Origin: Polymorphobacter multimanifer
Lineage (GTDB): Bacteria; Pseudomonadota; Alphaproteobacteria; Sphingomonadales; Sphingomonadaceae
Assembly (NCBI RefSeq): GCF_014205635.1
Contig: NZ_JACIIV010000025.1
Coordinates: 1-52,057 of the forward strand
Reading direction: 5' to 3'
Length of the DNA: 52,057 nucleotides
Shown: piece by piece, positions 29,187-38,460 of the stretch
How positions within the stretch are numbered: the first letter of the stretch is position 1
Layout of the letters: each line of letters starts with the position of its first letter
Position numbers and translations under genes: made by a program
The notes under the pieces: generated by a model
Database searches by the model: none
What the model was told of the DNA's origin: nothing
Seen by the model: the letters and a program-made list of their open reading frames with translations, nothing else

Positions 29187-30473
29187 ATGACCAACACAGC
29201 CAACATAGCACTGGGCGACAAGTCGGCCGAATATCCCGTGCTGAGCGGCAGCGTCGGCCCCGATGTCATCGATATCCGCAAGCTCTACGGCAACACCGGG
29301 CGCTTCACCTATGATCCGGGCTTCACCAGCACCGCGGCATGCGAATCCAAGATCACCTATATCGATGGCGATCAGGGCATCCTGCTCTATCGCGGCTACC
29401 CCATCGACCAGCTCGCCGAAAAGTCCAACTTTCTCGAAGTCGCCTATCTTCTGCTGAACGGCGATCTGCCGAGCAAGCCCGATCACGACGAGTTCACCCA
29501 TCTCATCACCCGCCACACCATGATCCACGAGCAGCTCGCGCAATTCTACCGCGGTTTCCGCCGCGATGCGCACCCGATGGCGATCATGTGCGGCATCGTC
29601 GGTGCCATGGCCGCCTTCTACCATGATTCGACCGACATCCATGATCCGCAGCAGCGCGTCATCGCCTCGCACCGGATCATCGCCAAGATGCCCACCCTGG
29701 CGGCGATGGCGTATAAATATTCGATCGGCCAGCCTTTCCTCTACCCCGACAATTCGCTCAGCTTCGCCGGCAACTTCCTGCGCATGACCTTCGGCGTCCC
29801 CGCCGAGCCCTATGTCATCGATCCGGTGGTCGAAGACGCCATGGAAAAGCTGCTCATCCTGCAGGCCGATCACGAGCAGAACGCCAGCACCTCGACCGTC
29901 CGCCTCGCCGGCTCGTCGGGCGCCAACCCGTTTGCCTGCATCTCGGCCGGCATCGCCTGCCTCTGGGGCCCGGCGCATGGCGGCGCCAACGAAGCCGCCC
30001 TCAACATGCTGCGCGAAATCGGCACGCCGGACCGGATTCCCGAGTTCATCGCACGCGCCAAGAACAAGGATGATCCGTTCCGCCTCATGGGCTTCGGCCA
30101 CCGCGTCTACAAGAACTACGATCCCCGCGCCAAGGTGATGAGCAAGGTGGCGAAGGACATTCTCGACAAGCTGGGCCGTTCCGATCCCATCTTCGACGTG
30201 GCGCGCGAGCTCGAGCATATCGCCCTCAACGACCCCTATTTCATCGACAAGAAGCTCTATCCCAACGTCGATTTCTATTCGGGCGTCGTCATGTCCGCCA
30301 TCGGCTTCCCCACCTCGATGTTCACCGTGCTGTTCGCCATCTCGCGCGCCGTCGGCTGGATCGCGCAATGGACCGAGATGATGGAAGATCCCGAGCAGAA
30401 GATCGGCCGCCCGCGCCAGCTCTACACCGGCCCCACCCAGCGCGATTTCGTGCCGCTCAACGCGCGCGGCTGA
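29187..30473 (+). CDS. gltA: Citrate synthase (type II)
   Basis: A 428-residue hexameric-type citrate synthase of the tricarboxylic acid cycle. The substrate and catalytic residues are in [27 protein letters not shown] (His), [15 protein letters not shown] (His and Arg) and PNVDFYSG (Asp). The start at 29187 follows AAAGGG with nine bases of spacing, and lies 19 bases downstream of gltX. Type II enzymes are usually inhibited by NADH; this cannot be judged from the sequence. Confidence 0.98.
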
Positions 30474-30481
30474 CAGCGTCA

Positions 30482-32059
30482 GTGCGTGTTTTCACCGCCA
30501 GCGCCCGGCTCATCGCCGGCGCGCTGGCCCTCGGCTTCGCCACCGCCGCCAGTGCCGGCCCCTTCGCCGATGTTGGGGACCGGCAGTTGCGGCAAGATGT
30601 CGGCACGCTCGCCGCCGCCGGCCTCATCCGCGGCCCGGTCGACAGCTGGCCCCTGCCCTGGGCGCAGATCGACGCCGGCCTCAACCGCGCCAGGGATGGC
30701 CGGGCGCTGCCCGCGCACGTCGCCGCCGCCGCGCGACGCCTCGATCGGCTGGCCGATTTCGCCGCGCAGCGCCTCGCCTTCGAAGCCCGGCTGATGGGCA
30801 CCAACGAAGTGAGCGTGGCGCGCGATTTCGGCACGCTTGCGCGCGGCCGTGCCGATGTGTCGGGCCGGGTGGAGGCCACCGGCGAGGTATTCTCGATCAG
30901 CCTCGGCGGCGGCTACCGGTCGGATCAGGATGTGGCGCGCTGGCACCCCGAGCCATCGCAGGTCACCGCCCGCCTCGGCAACTGGGCCGTCTACGCCGGC
31001 AACACCGAGCAATGGTTCGGCCCTGGCGTCGATGGCGCGCTGCTCTTCTCCAACGCCACCCGTCCGATGCCCAAGCTCGGCATCAAGCGCCTCGAGCCCT
31101 ATCCCATCGATCTGCCGGTCCTGCGCTGGCTCGGCCCGATCCGGCTCGACATGTTCGCCGGAGTCCTCAACGAAGACCGGGATTTCCGCAACACGCTCAC
31201 CATCGGCACCAGGCTCGGCTTCACGCCCGCAGCCGGCCTCGAGATCGGCCTCAACCGCGCCCAGATGCTCTGCGGCGCCGGCCGGCCATGCGGCCTCAAG
31301 CAGATCGCCCAATCCTTCATCGGCATCGGCAATGCCGACAATCCCACCGTTGGCGACACCGATGCCTTCCTCAACCAGCCCGGCAACCAGATCGCCGGCT
31401 TCGACATCAGCTACACCCACAACTTCGGCAATGTCGCGGCAAAGCTCTATTTCGAAGGCGAGGCCGAGGATTTCGACAATGTCATCCTCGAACAATGGGG
31501 CCGGCTCATCGGCCTCACCGTCTCCGGCCCGGCCGGCAGCGGCGGCGGCAGCTTCACCACCACGCTCGAATATTCCGACACGCTGGCCGTCTCGCTGTTC
31601 AACGGCACCCCGCTCGAAGGCCTCACTGGCGGCGAGACGCAATATCCCGGCTCCTTCTACAACAACAGCCTCTACACCTCGGGCTTCACCTATCGCGGAC
31701 GCCCGATCGGCCACTGGACCGCCGGAGACAGCCGCAACCTCGCCCTCCACGCCGCCGTCACCGACACCCGCAATCGCCGCTGGTACGGCTCGGCACGCGC
31801 CGTCCACCTGAACGTCATCGATCTCGGGAACCCGCCCACCGCCATCTTCCCGCGCCCCGATGGCAGCCCCGGCCCGGCGATCAGCAACCCCGTCTCTGCA
31901 TCCTCGGAAAAACTCGCCATCCTCACCGCGGGTGCCGAGCTGCCGATGACATTCGGCGATCTCCGCATCGAAACCCGCTGGCAATCCGACAGCCCGAGCA
32001 CCCCCGGCCGCCGCGCACCGCGCGCCGCGATCGAAGTCCAGTTGCGGCAGCGGTTCTAG
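30482..32059 (+). CDS. Wzi-like outer-membrane beta-barrel protein
   Basis: A 525-residue exported protein beginning at a GTG eight bases after the gltA stop, with a Sec signal peptide (residues about 1-23, ending in Ala-Ser-Ala). The mature N-terminus GPFADVGDRQLRQDVGTLAA, followed by GLIRGPVDSWPLPWAQ, is the pattern of the Wzi family of capsule-anchoring outer-membrane lectins. The rest is rich in alternating aromatic/hydrophobic strands with Gly-Asn-Asp turns, as in an 18-strand barrel. In Klebsiella, Wzi anchors capsular polysaccharide; sphingomonads often have such proteins beside exopolysaccharide genes. None are visible here, and the next genes make inositol compounds, so the ligand is open. 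Confidence 0.75.
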   Translation: MRVFTASARLIAGALALGFATAASAGPFADVGDRQLRQDVGTLAAAGLIRGPVDSWPLPWAQIDAGLNRARDGRALPAHVAAAARRLDRLADFAAQRLAFEARLMGTNEVSVARDFGTLARGRADVSGRVEATGEVFSISLGGGYRSDQDVARWHPEPSQVTARLGNWAVYAGNTEQWFGPGVDGALLFSNATRPMPKLGIKRLEPYPIDLPVLRWLGPIRLDMFAGVLNEDRDFRNTLTIGTRLGFTPAAGLEIGLNRAQMLCGAGRPCGLKQIAQSFIGIGNADNPTVGDTDAFLNQPGNQIAGFDISYTHNFGNVAAKLYFEGEAEDFDNVILEQWGRLIGLTVSGPAGSGGGSFTTTLEYSDTLAVSLFNGTPLEGLTGGETQYPGSFYNNSLYTSGFTYRGRPIGHWTAGDSRNLALHAAVTDTRNRRWYGSARAVHLNVIDLGNPPTAIFPRPDGSPGPAISNPVSASSEKLAILTAGAELPMTFGDLRIETRWQSDSPSTPGRRAPRAAIEVQLRQRF

Positions 32060-32078: not shown

Positions 32079-32759
32079 TCACCTGGCCACCCACTCCTCG
32101 GCCAGCGCCAACGCCCGCGGATCATCGATGTCGATCCAGTCATGCGCCGAAACATCCGCCACCGCGGCCCGGCGGCGCGCAGCCAGCGCCCGCACCCCAT
32201 CCGACAGGCCCGGCCGCGGCAGCCCCGCCAGCGACTCCATCAGCTCGGGCGTGATCAGGAACACCCCGCAGTCGTAGCAATCATAGCTGGCAATGGTCTT
32301 GCCGATGGCGAGGATCCGGTCGCCGCGCGTCGAGACGCGCGTCACATCCTCCTCATCGACCCAGGGGTGACCCAGGCGGCGGTCGATGCCGAGCACCAGC
32401 CCGGCATCGGCGAGCGATGCCCCGGCAACGGCGGCATAGAGCGATGGCGAGGCCAGATGGTCCCCCATCACCAGCAGCGCCTTGTCCTCCAGCACACCGG
32501 CGGCCGCGAGCACCGACACTCCATTGGGCTCGGCCCAATCCGGATTGTGAACGATCTCGGCACCCGCAGCGCGCGCCACGGCGCCGACGCGCTCGCCCTC
32601 ATAGCCGGTAATCACCACCGGACGGGTCACGCCGGCCGCAGCAAGATTGGCAAGGATGCGGACCAGCAGGACCTCGCCGCCGACCGGAGTCAGCGGCTTG
32701 GAGGCCGAAACGCTGCGCAGGCGCGTGCCCATGCCCGCGGCAAGGACAATCGCCTGCAT
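32079..32759 (-). CDS. Inositol-1-phosphate cytidylyltransferase-like nucleotidyltransferase
   Basis: A 226-residue nucleotidyltransferase of the GT-A-like sugar-nucleotide fold. AIVLAAGMGTRL is the nucleotide-binding loop, KPLTPVGG the Lys-containing substrate loop, LVMGDH the metal-binding Asp region, YDCYDCGVFLI and WIDIDDP the later conserved blocks. The LVMGDH, CGVFLI and WIDIDDP blocks and their spacing are those of the archaeal IPCT enzyme, which makes CDP-inositol from CTP and inositol-1-phosphate. Located 17 bases downstream of myo-inositol-3-phosphate synthase and before two CDP-alcohol phosphatidyltransferase genes, so CDP-inositol production is the coherent reading. A general sugar nucleotidyltransferase remains possible. 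Confidence 0.72.
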   Translation of the reverse strand: MQAIVLAAGMGTRLRSVSASKPLTPVGGEVLLVRILANLAAAGVTRPVVITGYEGERVGAVARAAGAEIVHNPDWAEPNGVSVLAAAGVLEDKALLVMGDHLASPSLYAAVAGASLADAGLVLGIDRRLGHPWVDEEDVTRVSTRGDRILAIGKTIASYDCYDCGVFLITPELMESLAGLPRPGLSDGVRALAARRRAAVADVSAHDWIDIDDPRALALAEEWVAR

Positions 32760-32776
32760 ACAGTGCTTCCGCGGTC

Positions 32777-33880
32777 TTAGTTGACCGTCACGCCCGCGAT
32801 GAAATCCTCGACGGCGGTGAACGCTTCATCGTCGGTCACCTGCACCGGCGGGTGCTTGCAGAAGTAGGACGATGGCCCGAGCACGGGACCGGCCAGACCA
32901 CGGTCGAGCGCGATCTTGGCGCAGCGGATCATGTCGATCGCCACACCCGCCGAGTTGGGGCTGTCCTCCACCGAAAGCCGAAGCTCGATGTTCATCGGCA
33001 CGCCACCGAACATCCGGCCTTCCATGCGCAGGAAGCAGACCTTGTTGTCGTTCTGCCACGGCACATAGTCGGACGGGCCGACATGGATGTTCTCGTCGTC
33101 GAGCCGCGTGTGCGCCACCGACTGCACGGCTTCGGTCTTCGATTCCTTCTTCGATGCCAGCCGCTCGCGGTTGAGCATGTTGAGGAAGTCGGTGTTGCCG
33201 CCGGTGTTGAGCTGATAGGTGCGATCGAGCGTCACGCCGCGCTTGGCGAACAGGTCGGTCAACATGCGGTGGACGATCGTCGCCCCCAGCTGCGCCTTGA
33301 TGTCGTCCCCGATGATCGGCACGCCGGCGCTGCGGAACTTCTCCGCCCACACCGGATTCGAAGCGATGAACACCGGCATGTTGTTGACGAACGCCACGCC
33401 GGCAGTGATCGCGGCATCGGCATAGAATTCGGTGGCCTGCTGGCTGCCGACCGGCAGATAATTGCACATCACCTGCGCGCCCGAGCGCTTCAGGCTCTCC
33501 ACCACCTCGGCCTTGGTAGGCTCCGGGGCATCGGACACCAGGAAGCGGCGATGGTCGGGATGCGATGCCATATGCGGCGACACGCCATCGAGGATGCGGC
33601 CCATCTGCACGATGGCACCGGTCTGCCCGACATGGTCGCAGAACACGGCAGTGCAATTCGGCTTTGCGAAGATCGCTTCGGACACATCCTTGCCGACCTT
33701 GCGCGAATCGACGTCCCAGGCAGCGACGACCGAGATATCCTTGGGCCGATAGCCGCCCATATCCCAGTGCATCAGCCCCTGCTCATCGTTCGATCCACCG
33801 TTGGCGTAGTGGAAGAGCCCCTGAACGAGGGACGAAACACAATTGCCAACCCCCACCAGGGCGACGGGAATCAACGACAT
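32777..33880 (-). CDS. Myo-inositol-3-phosphate synthase
   Basis: A 367-residue NAD-dependent isomerase that makes inositol-3-phosphate from glucose-6-phosphate. VALVGVGNCVSSLVQG (residues 6-21) is the NAD-binding loop. CNYLPVGSQQATEFYADAAI, VGVPIIGDDIKAQLG-like and TGGNTDFLNML segments are the family's catalytic blocks, and the HVGPSDYVPWQNDNKVCFL region is typical of actinobacterial/archaeal synthases. I start at ATG 33880, for which AAGGA sits ten bases upstream; ATG 33889 is too near the same AAGGA. It is the committed step of inositol production and heads the minus-strand pair with the cytidylyltransferase. Confidence 0.95.
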   Translation of the reverse strand: MSLIPVALVGVGNCVSSLVQGLFHYANGGSNDEQGLMHWDMGGYRPKDISVVAAWDVDSRKVGKDVSEAIFAKPNCTAVFCDHVGQTGAIVQMGRILDGVSPHMASHPDHRRFLVSDAPEPTKAEVVESLKRSGAQVMCNYLPVGSQQATEFYADAAITAGVAFVNNMPVFIASNPVWAEKFRSAGVPIIGDDIKAQLGATIVHRMLTDLFAKRGVTLDRTYQLNTGGNTDFLNMLNRERLASKKESKTEAVQSVAHTRLDDENIHVGPSDYVPWQNDNKVCFLRMEGRMFGGVPMNIELRLSVEDSPNSAGVAIDMIRCAKIALDRGLAGPVLGPSSYFCKHPPVQVTDDEAFTAVEDFIAGVTVN

Positions 33881-33952
33881 TTCAAGCATTTCCTTTCAAA
33901 GCCACCCGAGCGTCCGCATCCGGGCGCCTCCCATGATTTTGTGGCAGTTATA

Positions 33953-35278
33953 CTACAGCCGGTCACTGGGCAAGGACGCTTTGGCAAGGAAATCATACCG
34001 CGTCGCAGCGATGTTCTCGCGCACACGCGCGTCGCCCGTTTGCGCAAAGGCGCCCAAGCGCTTGTAAAACCGCCACTGTGCCACGGCGGTCGTGAGGATG
34101 CTGTAGATCGCGATGGCAACAAATCCTTCGAACCAGTGTCCGAAAACGGCAAAAATCGCCCAGGTCCACAGGAAGGTGTTGCGCCGCCCCGCCACCAGCC
34201 GCGCCGTTCGCTCGAAGCGCCCGCTGTCATCGAGCTGCAGCCCCGTCAGCCGCCGGTAGAATTCGCCCTGCACGGCCTCGGCAAGCGCCGGCAGGATGAT
34301 CAGCGCCGCCACCGCCCAGGGCAGGCCGGTGCCACGCGTGCTGGCAAACCAATAGGCCACGCAGAGGTACCAGCCATATTCGAGCACCTTGTCGAGCGCA
34401 TGCTCCAGGTCCCCCCAGCGTGAAAACTCGATGCGTGTCCGCGCCAGCTTGCCATCGACGCCGTCGAGCGGCCCGCACAACAGCGCCAGCCCCAGCCCCC
34501 ACCACAAGGCCCCGCTGGCAAAGGCCAGTCCGGCGGCCACCCCTATCACCCCGGTGAGCAGCGTCACCATGTTCGGCGTCACCGCCGTGGGCGCCAGCAA
34601 GCGCACCAGCATGTCCTCGATCAGCGGATGGATGAACCGCGCCGGCCAGTCGAGGCAGCCCTTCTGCGCCGCCGCCACCACCGCATCGCTCGCCGCGCGC
34701 GCACCGGCTTCGTCGCGCGGCAGCGCCCAGAGCAGCGGCACTTCGCGGCGGCGCTCGGCCGAATAGAGCGCAATCCCTTCAATCGGCACGCGGATCACCG
34801 ACGCATCGGCCGCAGCGGTGCGGATCAGCGTCGATCCCAGGTCCCAGTCGCCCAGCCCTTCGGCCACCGCCGCCACGCTGCGCGCCGCCAGCCGCAGCAC
34901 GCCGGCGGCATGCGCCTGCGCATCGAGTCGCTCCACGCCGCGCGCGGCCTCGGGCGGGCCGGTCCCGCGGCCATTGCTCACCAGCATCGCCGGGCCGGGC
35001 GCGGCTGCCACCGCGCGCAGCGCCCGCTCATCGATCACCAGCCCGGCCGCGATCAGCAGCACCTCGTCCGCACCCGCCAGTGCCGCACCCAGCTCGCCCA
35101 TCTTGAGCAGTTCGGCCCCCGCCGGCACCGGCGTCAGCGGCGGCGCCGCCACCAGCAGCAGCCGTGCACAGCCGACGCGCGCCAGCAGCCGTGCCTGCCG
35201 CTCGAGCACGGTCAAGCCGCCGATCCGCACCAGCGCCATTTCAGCCTCCGGGGCCAGAAGAACACCGATCCGTGTCAT
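33953..35278 (-). CDS. CDP-alcohol phosphatidyltransferase with N-terminal nucleotidyltransferase-like domain
   Basis: A 441-residue fusion. Residues about 1-190 resemble a nucleotidyltransferase in layout (GGLTVLERQARLLARVGCARLLLVA, later RVPIEGIALYS) but lack the glycine-rich nucleotide loop and the metal Asp, so the domain is probably inactive. From about 205 (KGCLDWPARFIHPLIEDMLVR) a six-helix CDP-alcohol phosphatidyltransferase domain follows. The motif DGVDGKLAR plus eight residues plus G is standard, but the next conserved Asp is His and the last Asp is displaced by one position (GDLEHALDK). IPCT-DIPPS fusions in thermophiles have the same architecture. It lies 73 bases upstream of the synthase gene on the same strand, so the three form one operon. 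Confidence 0.82.
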   Translation of the reverse strand: MTRIGVLLAPEAEMALVRIGGLTVLERQARLLARVGCARLLLVAAPPLTPVPAGAELLKMGELGAALAGADEVLLIAAGLVIDERALRAVAAAPGPAMLVSNGRGTGPPEAARGVERLDAQAHAAGVLRLAARSVAAVAEGLGDWDLGSTLIRTAAADASVIRVPIEGIALYSAERRREVPLLWALPRDEAGARAASDAVVAAAQKGCLDWPARFIHPLIEDMLVRLLAPTAVTPNMVTLLTGVIGVAAGLAFASGALWWGLGLALLCGPLDGVDGKLARTRIEFSRWGDLEHALDKVLEYGWYLCVAYWFASTRGTGLPWAVAALIILPALAEAVQGEFYRRLTGLQLDDSGRFERTARLVAGRRNTFLWTWAIFAVFGHWFEGFVAIAIYSILTTAVAQWRFYKRLGAFAQTGDARVRENIAATRYDFLAKASLPSDRL

Positions 35279-35303
35279 GCGTCAGCGCCTCATAGGGTGT
35301 GTT

Positions 35304-35330
35304 TCGGAAAAGTGGGAACCGGTTTTCCGA
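35304..35330. repeat. Short perfect inverted repeat between divergent CDP-alcohol transferase genes
   Basis: An 8-bp perfect inverted repeat (TCGGAAAA / TTTTCCGA) with 11 bases between the arms, located 26 bases upstream of the minus-strand gene start, in the shared control region of two divergent CDP-alcohol phosphatidyltransferase genes. Read as RNA it could form a hairpin; read as DNA it could be an operator. Inverted repeats of this look occur at many intergenic sites in alphaproteobacteria, so it may be an unspecific repeat. Confidence 0.5.
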
Positions 35331-35445
35331 TAAAAAACACACGACAACAAAAGCTGGACCCGCTTTTTCATGCCATCACGATGCGGGTGCAGGGTGCGAC
35401 CGTGGCTCTTGCCAAGCCGGCCCCGCCGGGCCTAGCAGAACAGCT

Positions 35446-36324
35446 GTGCACAAAAGCGCCACACACACCGCCGCGGGCGCCGACAGCGCCCGTCCCGAGG
35501 CGATCGAAGATCCATCCAACCTCTGGCTGGTGCACGCCATGTCATGGCGGCTGCTGCCGCTGGCGCTCAGGCTCGATATCCACCCCAACACCGTGTCCTT
35601 CACCGGCATGGGCTTCGGCCTTCTGGCCGGCTTCTGCTACTGGCACTGGCAGTCGCCACTGTTCGTCGTCGCCGGCTTCCTGCTCATGGTCGGCTGGCAT
35701 GTGATGGACGGGCTCGATGGCAAGCTCGCGCGCGCATCGGGCAAGGCCAGCCCGCTCGGCCGCGTCATCGACGGCATGTGCGATTATCTCGCCTTCATCT
35801 TCGTGCTGGCGCCCATCGCGCTCAGCTTTGCCGATTGGCAGCCGGTGCTGGCGCTCGCCGTCGTGTCGGGACTCTTTCACGCCGTCCAGTCCGCCTGGTA
35901 CGAAGCCGAGCGTGACGCCTGGAAGCGCCGCCTCACCGGCAACTTCGTCACCCCCATCCGCCCCCCCGGCCCGGCCATCGCCGCCGCCTATGATTGGGTC
36001 GAGGCCCGCTTCAACGCCGCCCACCGGCGGATGGACGCCGCCCTGGCAGCCCACCCCGGCCTGCTGCCGCGCTATCTCGACGCCACCGCCCCGCTTGTCC
36101 GCCGCCTGTCGATCCTCTCCGCCAACAACCGCACCGTCGCCATCGCCCTCGCCTGCCTCGCCGGCGATCCGCGCCTCTACTGGTATTGGGAGATCGCCGC
36201 CCTCACCGTCATCGCGCTGGTCATGGGCCGGCGGCTCCGCGCCCGCGAAGCGGCGCTGGCCAGCAGCAGCGGCACGGTGCTAGGTCAGGACACCTGTTCC
36301 CAGGGCACACTTCCCAAGGATTGA
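35446..36324 (+). CDS. CDP-alcohol phosphatidyltransferase family protein
   Basis: A 292-residue membrane enzyme. The full family motif D-x2-DG-x2-AR-x8-G-x3-D-x3-D is present in HVMDGLDGKLAR followed by PLGRVIDGMCD, so the metal and CDP binding site is intact. About six membrane helices form the first 200 residues, preceded by RLDIHPNTVSFTGM, the amphipathic entry helix of this family. An extra C-terminal segment (about 200-292), moderately hydrophobic, is not part of the core. Start GTG 35446 is a guess, since the frame is open to 35299. Divergent from the fusion gene. Substrates unknown; the neighbouring inositol genes suggest an inositol phospholipid or phosphodiester. Confidence 0.82.
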   Translation: MHKSATHTAAGADSARPEAIEDPSNLWLVHAMSWRLLPLALRLDIHPNTVSFTGMGFGLLAGFCYWHWQSPLFVVAGFLLMVGWHVMDGLDGKLARASGKASPLGRVIDGMCDYLAFIFVLAPIALSFADWQPVLALAVVSGLFHAVQSAWYEAERDAWKRRLTGNFVTPIRPPGPAIAAAYDWVEARFNAAHRRMDAALAAHPGLLPRYLDATAPLVRRLSILSANNRTVAIALACLAGDPRLYWYWEIAALTVIALVMGRRLRAREAALASSSGTVLGQDTCSQGTLPKD

Positions 36325-36333
36325 CGAGAGCCG

Positions 36334-38460
36334 ATGTCCGATCTGCCGACCCCGCCGCGCTGGCCCATCCTCGCCGCTGGCGCCGCAACGCTCCTGTGGC
36401 TGGCAATGATCATCGTCACGGCAATGCTCTTCCTCCCCGGCGCCACCATCCCCGCAAGCTTCGAGGCTTTCCCGGTCATTGCCGGCATCGCCCTCAACAT
36501 CGCCGCCCCGCTCACCGTCCTCTGGCTTGTCGCCACACGCCTGCGCGATACCAGCGCCGCCCAGGCCGCGCGCAACGCGCTGATGGCCGAGCAGGCGGAG
36601 TTCACCGCCCTCCGCCTCCGCGAAGGCGCCGACGCCCTCGCCGCGCTCGAAACGCGCCTGTCGGATTTCACCGGCCAGCTCACCGCCATGGCCAAGCCCG
36701 TCGAGCGCCAGCACGCAGCCCTCGCCACCAGCATCGCCGCCCTGCACGAATCCACCGCCAGCCTCACGGCCGCGGCCGAGCGTGCCGATGCCGCCACCCG
36801 CCAGCTGGGCCAGGAAACACCTGCCGCCACCGCCGCCGCCGAGGCCCTCACCATCCTGCTCGGCAGCGCCCAGGCGCTCCTCACCGGCGAAGTCAGCCGC
36901 GCCGACGGTCTCATCGCCAGCCTCGCCGCGCGCCTTGCCGAAGCGCGCATCGAAGCCAGCGCCACCGCGAGCGAAACCGAAGCCCGCCTCGAAGCCGTCA
37001 CCGCCGCTTCGGATGCCGCGCGCGCCGCCCTCGTCTCCCCGCTGGCGGAGCTCGACCAGGGCATCGACGCCGCCCTCGCGCGCACCGGGGAGGCCCTCGA
37101 CATCACGCGCGACGGCGTCCACGCCCAGACCAACGCCATCCTCGCCAGCATCGACCAGGCGCGCACCAGCATCGAGCATATCGGTGGCGAGGCCGCCAGC
37201 GCCATCGCCGCGCGGCTGGCCTCGCTCTGCGCCGGCCTCGCCAACCTCGGCACCAACCTCGACGAGCAGGCCGCGCGCGCCGCCACGCTGGTGGACGACC
37301 TCGGCGAGCGCTTCCAGAGCTTCGATGCCACGCTCGGCGCCAGCACCGACCGCGGCGACGCCATGCTCGCCAGCGTCACCGACCGGCTCGGCGATGTGCG
37401 CACCGCCATTGCCGGCCTCATCACCCCGGTCGCCGAGACCGAAGCCAGCCTCGATGGCCTGTCGGCCCGCCTTGCGCACCTCGATGACGGCGCCACAAGG
37501 CTGTTCGGCACCATGGACGAGCGCCTCCCCGCCACCGTGCCCGGCCTCGACGATCTCGCCAGCCGCCTCGCCCGCCTCCACGACGATGCCACTGCCCTCG
37601 CCGCCCCCATCGAAGCGGGCGCCGACACCATGGCGGCCGCCCATGCCCGGCTGCAGGAGGCTGCCGCCACCCTCGACGCCAGCGCCGACACGCTGGCGAA
37701 CCGGCTGGCCAGCGCCGAAGCCAGCCTCGCCGCCCTCACCCGCACGGCCGAAGACGATGCCCTCGCCGCCTCCGCCACCCTGCTCGACAGCTTCAGCCGC
37801 ATCCGCGAGATTGCCGGCCAGGCCGCGGGCACGATGCGCGAGACACTGGCCGGCGTCGTCGCCGAAGCCGAAGCCGCCCTCGATCAAGCCGGCACCAGCC
37901 GCGCCGAAATCGCCTTCGGCGCCCCCGTCCGCACCGCCATCGCCGCGCTCGAAGTCCAGCACGCCAACGCCGCCAGTGCGGCCCAGGTCGCCGCCGAGCG
38001 CGTCTCGTCGCGGCTGGTGGCGCTCACCCGCACCATGGCCGACATGGAAACCCATTTCGACAAGCGGCAGACCGAGATAAACATCCGCGAGCGCTCCGAT
38101 CTCGCCAAGCGCGCCACCACGCTTCTCGCCACGCTGCACGAAAGCGCCATCGACCTGTCGCGCCTGCTGGCACTCGACATCGAGGATCAGGACTACGAAG
38201 CCTGGCTCGCAGGCGACCGCAGCCGCTTCCTCCGCCGCCTCACCTCGGGCCTCGACGAGGAGACCGGCCGCGCCATCGCCCGCCACCTCGCCCACGACCC
38301 CGCCTTCCGCACCGACGCCACCCGCTTCGCCGAAGCCTTCGAAACCCTCATCGAACACGTCAGCACCGACCGCCAGGGCCGCCCCCTCGCCGCCACCCTG
38401 CTCGCTTCGGACCCGGGCAAGCTCTACCTCGCCCTCACCCAGGTGGTGAAGGGGGACTGA
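36334..38460 (+). CDS. Large coiled-coil membrane protein with two N-terminal membrane helices
   Basis: A 708-residue protein, 9 bases after the transferase gene and in the same direction. Two hydrophobic segments (about 11-34 and 47-66) are followed by roughly 480 residues of Ala/Leu/Glu-rich coiled coil with short heptad-like repeats. A distinct globular C-terminal domain (about 585-708, starting RSDLAKRATTLLATLHESA) completes it. This is the architecture of TipN, the Caulobacter polarity factor, but I see no specific sequence signature that proves it. The very repetitive composition makes family assignment by eye unsafe. The last part of its coding sequence (38301-38412) is duplicated at 39489-39600. 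Confidence 0.7.
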   Translation: MSDLPTPPRWPILAAGAATLLWLAMIIVTAMLFLPGATIPASFEAFPVIAGIALNIAAPLTVLWLVATRLRDTSAAQAARNALMAEQAEFTALRLREGADALAALETRLSDFTGQLTAMAKPVERQHAALATSIAALHESTASLTAAAERADAATRQLGQETPAATAAAEALTILLGSAQALLTGEVSRADGLIASLAARLAEARIEASATASETEARLEAVTAASDAARAALVSPLAELDQGIDAALARTGEALDITRDGVHAQTNAILASIDQARTSIEHIGGEAASAIAARLASLCAGLANLGTNLDEQAARAATLVDDLGERFQSFDATLGASTDRGDAMLASVTDRLGDVRTAIAGLITPVAETEASLDGLSARLAHLDDGATRLFGTMDERLPATVPGLDDLASRLARLHDDATALAAPIEAGADTMAAAHARLQEAAATLDASADTLANRLASAEASLAALTRTAEDDALAASATLLDSFSRIREIAGQAAGTMRETLAGVVAEAEAALDQAGTSRAEIAFGAPVRTAIAALEVQHANAASAAQVAAERVSSRLVALTRTMADMETHFDKRQTEINIRERSDLAKRATTLLATLHESAIDLSRLLALDIEDQDYEAWLAGDRSRFLRRLTSGLDEETGRAIARHLAHDPAFRTDATRFAEAFETLIEHVSTDRQGRPLAATLLASDPGKLYLALTQVVKGD
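38301..38412. repeat. Direct repeat A (copy 1; 3' part of the coiled-coil gene)
   Basis: About 112 bases within the coiled-coil gene that recur at 39489-39600 in the same orientation with roughly seven differences and one single-base gap (counted by eye). The longest identical block is about 66 bases. This copy is in an intact reading frame and is presumably the original. Confidence 0.9.

Follow-up and report, generated by a model that had tools for sequence, protein, structure and literature searches.

What would a compact set of inositol-phosphate genes make in an alphaproteobacterium that also has sphingolipid genes, and which of the substrates carries the CDP group? The question is raised by positions 32079-36324 of a 52,057-nucleotide contig of Polymorphobacter multimanifer (NZ_JACIIV010000025.1), the whole of which is called the window below. 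An earlier note had described a myo-inositol-3-phosphate synthase (MIPS), an IPCT-like cytidylyltransferase and two CDP-alcohol transferases (here P3 and P4) lying together there, three of them on one strand. Open reading frames (ORFs), Pfam and NCBIfam confirmed this. The four ORFs lie at 32079-32759 (IPCT), 32777-33889 (MIPS) and 33953-35278 (P3) on the minus strand and at 35299-36324 (P4) on the plus strand. The minus-strand order was P3-MIPS-IPCT, with gaps of 63 bases (P3/MIPS) and 17 bases (MIPS/IPCT), and P4 was divergent from P3. A sigma-70 promoter scan of the P3-P4 intergenic stretch found none. Both transferases passed the PF01066 cut-off of 22 bits (35.6 and 36.8 bits) and are two of the four CDP-alcohol transferases found genome-wide with that family.

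We consider it fairly probable that the four genes form a CDP-inositol module in which P4 would make an inositol lipid and P3 would serve an accessory branch. The enzyme families, catalytic residues and co-inheritance are read from the sequences; from these we infer that CDP is on inositol, and the acceptors named below are hypothetical.

Gene families and the substrate that carries CDP

IPCT (226 aa, 32079..32759, minus strand) belongs to the Pfam family NTP_transf_3, and its best NCBIfam match was the IPCT/DIPPS model NF041135 (1.6e-30, 106 bits), whose cut-off of 580 refers to the whole protein, of which IPCT here has only the IPCT half. The closest solved structures were the IPCT of Archaeoglobus fulgidus (2xme, 1.1e-17) and a bifunctional IPCT-DIPPS (4mnd, 7.4e-17), and other nucleotidyltransferases ranked behind them in the PDB comparison, from 4.5e-11 on. 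The alignment to 2xme showed that LAAGxGTRL, KPL, NGxS, MGDH and DCxDxG were all retained, with the nucleotide loop LAAGMGTRL at 32718..32744 (minus strand) aligned to LAAGLGTRL and the MGDH motif at 32457..32468 (minus strand) identical. The protein is thus annotated as a putative CTP:L-myo-inositol-1-phosphate cytidylyltransferase, and L-myo-inositol 1-phosphate would be its substrate.

MIPS (370 aa, 32777..33889, minus strand), an inositol-3-phosphate synthase of the mycothiol INO1-like type, matched PF01658 above its cut-off (1e-36) and TIGR03450 with 438 bits, below the cut-off of 638. Four alphaproteobacterial genomes outside Sphingomonadales (G202, G249, G322 and G401) encode MIPS and IPCT as a single ORF of 625-698 aa, with the IPCT match behind the MIPS domain (one of the four was domain-checked by Pfam and NCBIfam). 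Because the IPCT motifs are kept and such fusions occur, inositol rather than the lipid most likely carries CDP. The earlier note had left this choice open, and the motifs and fusions sharpen it in favor of inositol.

Co-inheritance of IPCT, MIPS and P4

The gene-neighborhood comparison proposed in the earlier note showed that the IPCT-MIPS-P4 triad recurs in other genomes, and therefore we do not regard the module as a chance arrangement. Presence was scored in 197 genomes of Sphingomonadales, with cut-offs of E<1e-20 for IPCT and P4, E<1e-100 for MIPS and E<1e-30 for a strict P3 call. IPCT was found in 56 genomes, P4 in 55 and both in 54, with 57 having either; IPCT occurred without P4 in G040 and G141, and P4 without IPCT in G009. 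MIPS was found in 64 genomes, including all 56 with IPCT and all 55 with P4, and eight of the 64 had no IPCT. These genomes are related to one another, so Fisher values overstate their independence. Strict P3 was found in 20 genomes, all with P4 and 19 with IPCT, the exception being G009, a 160-contig assembly. At the same cut-offs, MIPS stood without IPCT or P4 in G023, G048, G103, G136, G153, G166 and G168.

The module was patchy among 129 Novosphingobium genomes (IPCT 81, P4 82, both 81), and the odd genome, with P4 and no IPCT, is a 410-contig assembly. Two other sampled members of the window's genus gave no IPCT, P4 or MIPS match at the cut-offs used. Gene order varied more than gene content: G089 retains all the genes though P4, IPCT and the P3-MIPS pair sit at distances of tens to hundreds of kb from one another, and in the draft G045 the same three units are spread over three contigs. 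P4, MIPS and IPCT of S. parapaucimobilis are consecutive on an 853-kb replicon, their adjoining ends sharing 1 and 4 bases. For the 80 best of 126 confirmed loci, all retrieved through P4 and none of them from Novosphingobium acidiphilum, the ORF tally was 75 for P4, 76 for MIPS, 63 for IPCT, 26 for C6 (a sister group of P3) and one for strict P3. For the 17 loci without an IPCT call, tblastn recovered IPCT in ten (two whole and eight in pieces, most of the latter at the edge of the retrieved stretch) and none in seven.

The two CDP-alcohol transferases

P4 (341 aa as listed, 35299..36324, plus strand) is a probable CDP-inositol:lipid transferase. The class-I CDP-alcohol phosphotransferase signature D1xxD2G1xxAR...G2xxxD3xxxD4, as defined in the available text of PMC4634129, was complete in P4 (D137..D140G..AR...G154...D158...D162; 35707..35784, plus strand) and invariant across 45 aligned sequences. 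The P4 profile matched the solved structures of AF2299 (3.9e-13), CEPT1 (7.4e-8), PIP (phosphatidylinositol phosphate) synthase (9e-5) and DIPPS (2.3e-4), and cholinephosphotransferases ranked with AF2299 and CEPT1 among the best matches, ahead of PIP synthase and DIPPS. The ERxxR-type acceptor motif of PIP synthases was absent from P4 (0 of 33 and 0 of 45 alignment rows).

The structure predictions and tree that the earlier note had called for were run for both transferases. The AlphaFold2 model of P4 had a predicted local distance difference test (pLDDT) score of 81.6, and its Foldseek matches were weak (best E 2.1e-3), though the top 28 were all CDP-alcohol phosphotransferases. A tree of 66 CDP-alcohol phosphotransferase cores joined P4 and a Parabacteroides transferase in one clade (96/95) with a long branch; the two proteins were 24% identical over 250 aa (2e-21). 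On this sequence evidence, P4 probably transfers phosphoinositol onto a lipid. The listed GTG start of P4 at 35299 is probably over-called and the GTG at 35446 is the likelier start, because homologues begin just before the conserved RPxEIED segment and residues 1-57 are poorly modelled (all but one residue being predicted disordered or of very low AlphaFold2 confidence).

P3 (441 aa, 33953..35278, minus strand) is a CDP-alcohol transferase with a degenerate N-terminal nucleotidyltransferase-like domain. A profile of 12 P3 and eight C6 proteins matched the IPCT-DIPPS 4mnd over positions 15-407 (2.1e-28). The AlphaFold2 model of P3 also had 4mnd as its best Foldseek match (1.7e-8), although confidence in this model is low (pLDDT 67.6, with residues 99-182 under 50). 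The AGxG[TS]R loop was kept in none of the 20 aligned P3 and C6 proteins, so none has an intact IPCT domain; the IPCT-like domain of P3 itself, residues 1-187 (34718..35278, minus strand), has no GxGTR loop in that alignment. The catalytic signature DGVDGKLAR...GDLEHALD (D272, D275, E292, D296; 34391..34465, minus strand) retains D1, D2 and D4; a glutamate stands at D3 and, in the alignment, the spacing after the glycine is shorter by one residue. From these alignments P3 is seen to be a descendant of a bifunctional IPCT/DIPP synthase, with its IPCT domain dead. P3 would then be a transferase that has kept a dead IPCT domain attached, its donor being available from the separate IPCT.

The motif FERTARL (34196..34216, minus strand) matched the ERxxRL of PIP synthases in the HMMER alignment to 6h5a/6h53, and ERxxR was present in 11 of the 12 P3 proteins and none of the eight C6 proteins. 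Since the available text of PMC4634129 ties this motif to inositol-phosphate recognition, the acceptor of P3 is most likely a phosphate-bearing inositol, which may be inositol phosphate or the headgroup of an inositol phospholipid. In the tree P3 formed a separate clade (98/96), and C6, whose N-terminal domain is likewise degenerate, grouped with DIPPS fusions (93/94, inner fork 90/86). However, long branches meet here, that of P3 with the host PssA-like sequence and that of C6 with the DIPPS fusions, and the link between C6 and DIPPS is therefore weak. C6 adjoins the triad (in G141 only IPCT and MIPS) in eight of 41 analysed sequences. One of the 12 P3 relatives (L116:7370-8728, G025), which adjoins a P4, had a broken signature (TGIDQKLAH) with the first aspartate and more lost, and is likely a dead transferase.

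Proposed pathway, alternatives and related systems

In the proposed pathway MIPS would form 1D-myo-inositol 3-phosphate, which is the same molecule as L-myo-inositol 1-phosphate, and IPCT would activate this inositol phosphate with CTP to CDP-inositol. With CDP-inositol as donor, P4 would then attach phosphoinositol to a lipid alcohol, either diacylglycerol or ceramide, and so form an inositol phospholipid directly, in a single step of Kennedy-type logic with neither a PIP intermediate nor a phosphatase. P3, with its own IPCT half dead, would draw CDP-inositol from the separate IPCT. A lipid product is suggested by P4 rather than P3 tracking IPCT, by flippase-family and MMPL genes nearby, by the lack of a phosphatase of the di-myo-inositol phosphate type around the module, and by the host sphingolipid genes. 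Near the module the polysaccharide-flippase family Polysacc_synt_3 was found in 17 of 41 sequences and an MMPL exporter in 10 of 41 (one representative of each was checked by Pfam). No counterpart of the inositol monophosphatase (IMPase) of L209, a di-inositol-phosphate type locus described below, turned up among 122 sequences surrounding the module, a search that did not extend to phosphatases elsewhere in the genome. Serine palmitoyltransferase (SPT) was present in the host genome (691 bits to PDB 2x8u), in agreement with the earlier note, and acyl-AMP ligase, epimerase and GNAT genes lay within ~11 kb of it. The GNAT gene may encode bCerS, an acyltransferase according to the available text of PMC11087976, and from these genes the host is predicted to be a sphingolipid producer.

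Several observations weigh against a lipid product. By our own count P4 has ~6 membrane-type helices, one juxtamembrane helix and two amphipathic helices, and lacks the 3-4 extra C-terminal membrane helices of CEPT1; in the available text of PMC4634129, lipid-acceptor enzymes such as CEPT1 typically carry 3-4 more helices and the characterized prokaryotic ones share the six-helix form that goes with soluble acceptors. In the alignment the Parabacteroides transferase does not have the fourth aspartate where it is expected, and the likeness of this protein to P4 is therefore no proof of the same reaction. P4 is missing from G141, whose locus L112:5501-9875 combines IPCT and MIPS with a C6-type transferase. 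SPT was found in 196 of the 197 genomes and, being near-universal in the order, is uninformative on the acceptor. Among 284 genomes outside the order, SPT was found in 38 (at a cut-off of E 1e-85, which broken genes could escape) and IPCT in seven, with both only in G401. We dropped SPT presence as a decider of the acceptor, as it is universal in the order and occurs in one of the seven IPCT genomes outside. Lastly, a set of the di-inositol-phosphate type occurs in G209 and G386: MIPS, an IPCT-CDP-alcohol phosphotransferase fusion and a gene of the inositol monophosphatase type, which was checked by Pfam in G209 alone.

The two loci of this di-inositol-phosphate type are at L209:6329-10559 and L210:8916-12274, both in alphaproteobacteria without an SPT match. 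G401, from another alphaproteobacterial family, carries SPT, FA_hydroxylase, GNAT, the MIPS-IPCT fusion and Gly_transf_sug on one strand (L207:2402-8230). Its GNAT is 42% identical to the GNAT near the host SPT and its contig ends within SPT; we regard this run as a candidate sphingolipid-inositol operon, and it speaks for a lipid product.

The earlier note had proposed either an inositol lipid or a soluble inositol phosphodiester. We favor the lipid as the more probable product. A narrower and rather unlikely form of the lipid reading is a direct inositol-phosphoceramide pathway, where P4 or P3 would be a CDP-inositol:ceramide inositolphosphotransferase, with no need of phosphatidylinositol or of an AUR1-type enzyme, and the other of the two would add another phosphoinositol to the headgroup. 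Somewhat less likely again is soluble di-myo-inositol phosphate, with P3 (or P4) joining CDP-inositol and inositol phosphate to phosphorylated di-inositol phosphate (DIPP), followed by a phosphatase. The full-length relationship of P3 to IPCT-DIPPS, its ERxxR motif, the six membrane-type helices of P4, which suit a soluble acceptor, and the gene sets of G209 and G386 all speak for it. However, just 20 of the 55 genomes with P4 have P3, whereas P4 tracks IPCT, so P3 is not the main consumer of CDP-inositol; the L209 IMPase was unmatched in the 122 sequences, within the limit given above, and di-myo-inositol phosphate is known mainly from thermophiles.

P3 could instead make PIP from CDP-diacylglycerol and inositol phosphate in the classical way, with IPCT serving another purpose. 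P3 does match the PIP synthase model NF045883 and shares the ERxxRL motif, but its score of 45.7 bits is below the cut-off of 170, its closest solved relative is DIPPS and not PIP synthase, the module has no phosphatase and IPCT accompanies P3 in 19 of 20 genomes, which together make this route improbable. Decoration of a capsule-like surface glycan from CDP-inositol seems the least probable. It would fit the Wzi-family gene that adjoins IPCT in the host, G089 and G133 (the window copy identified by Pfam) and the flippase family in 17 of 41 sequences; but beyond the triad no gene cluster occurred in more than 17 of 41 sequences, and to our knowledge characterized CDP-alcohol phosphotransferases act on lipids or small solutes.

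A 2015 study of Rhodothermus marinus by Jorge, Borges and Santos reportedly mentions homologues in Alphaproteobacteria in its abstract, and the acceptor there is said to be a dialkyl glycerol. We know of no second, DIPPS-derived transferase in that route, unlike the P3 found here. As described in the available texts of PMC9246714 and PMC10191378, the R. marinus CDP-inositol route to glycerophosphoinositol lipids uses an IPCT-type enzyme together with a CDP-alcohol transferase to put inositol on a lipid. A CDP-inositol phospholipid route is thus already known, and the module here is best read as a variant with a DIPPS-derived side branch.

The earlier note had also compared the genes with an inositol-lipid set in Bacteroidetes, and this held in part. 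In the available text of Heaver 2022 (PMC9246714), the alternative Bacteroidetes cluster likewise has an NTP transferase and a CDP-alcohol transferase with MIPS, and its transferase is predicted to use CDP-inositol and diacylglycerol for phosphatidylinositol synthesis. By gene content (NDP-sugar synthase, hypothetical protein, CDP-alcohol phosphotransferase, HAD hydrolase) we take the Parabacteroides stretch to be this cluster, and its transferase is the homologue of P4 described above. However, its NTP transferase was only weakly like IPCT (5e-4 over 66 aa), it has no annotated MIPS in the stretch shown, whereas the module here does, and P3 as a second transferase occurs only here. None of the 122 sequences surrounding the module matched the Parabacteroides HAD hydrolase, and a HAD-dependent conversion as in Bacteroidetes was not adopted for that reason.

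The bifunctional IPCT/DIPPS of A. fulgidus (4mnd, 2xme) resembles the module in having IPCT, and its two-domain architecture recurs in P3. It differs in that the active IPCT is separate here, the fused one is dead and the module has no phosphatase; we know of no P4 counterpart in the A. fulgidus di-myo-inositol phosphate pathway. The mycobacterial and BT-type PI phosphate synthase route shares the CDP-alcohol phosphotransferase fold and the ERxxR motif of P3 but, unlike it, the module has IPCT and no PIP phosphatase. The ceramide phosphoglycerate pathway of Caulobacter, in the available text of PMC11324152, likewise builds a phosphosphingolipid headgroup with nucleotidyltransferase-like proteins and a CDP-alcohol phosphotransferase (CC_1159), but the headgroup is glycerate rather than inositol and a ceramide kinase and a CdsA-like protein are needed.

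Few bacteria have inositol lipids, and the module may be the missing pathway for those reported in related bacteria; we found no description of genes for inositol lipids in Sphingomonadales in the open-access literature searched. The available text of Heaver 2022 (PMC9246714) reports a lipid consistent with inositol phosphodihydroceramide from Novosphingobium acidiphilum, a species that lacks both Bacteroidetes clusters, and a Sphingomonas paucimobilis lipid of the same headgroup mass but without the 241 fragment. The N. acidiphilum inositol-phosphoceramide-like lipid would be explained by the module if that species carries it, and a direct inositol-phosphoceramide pathway, if true, would account for this orphan lipid. 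With 81 or 82 of the 129 Novosphingobium genomes carrying it, the module offers a defined set of genes for deletion and expression.

The Wzi-family gene lies at 30368-32059 of the window; its relative orientation to IPCT is different in G089 and G133. Directly after P4, at 36334-38460, the window encodes a 708-aa coiled-coil-like protein for which Pfam and NCBIfam gave no match above cut-off; relatives of it adjoin P4 in G089 and G133. Near the module in several Novosphingobium genomes (L098, L101 and L105-L107) lie genes for an ABC transporter and for a small protein which, as read from the translations, resemble lasso-peptide processing enzymes.

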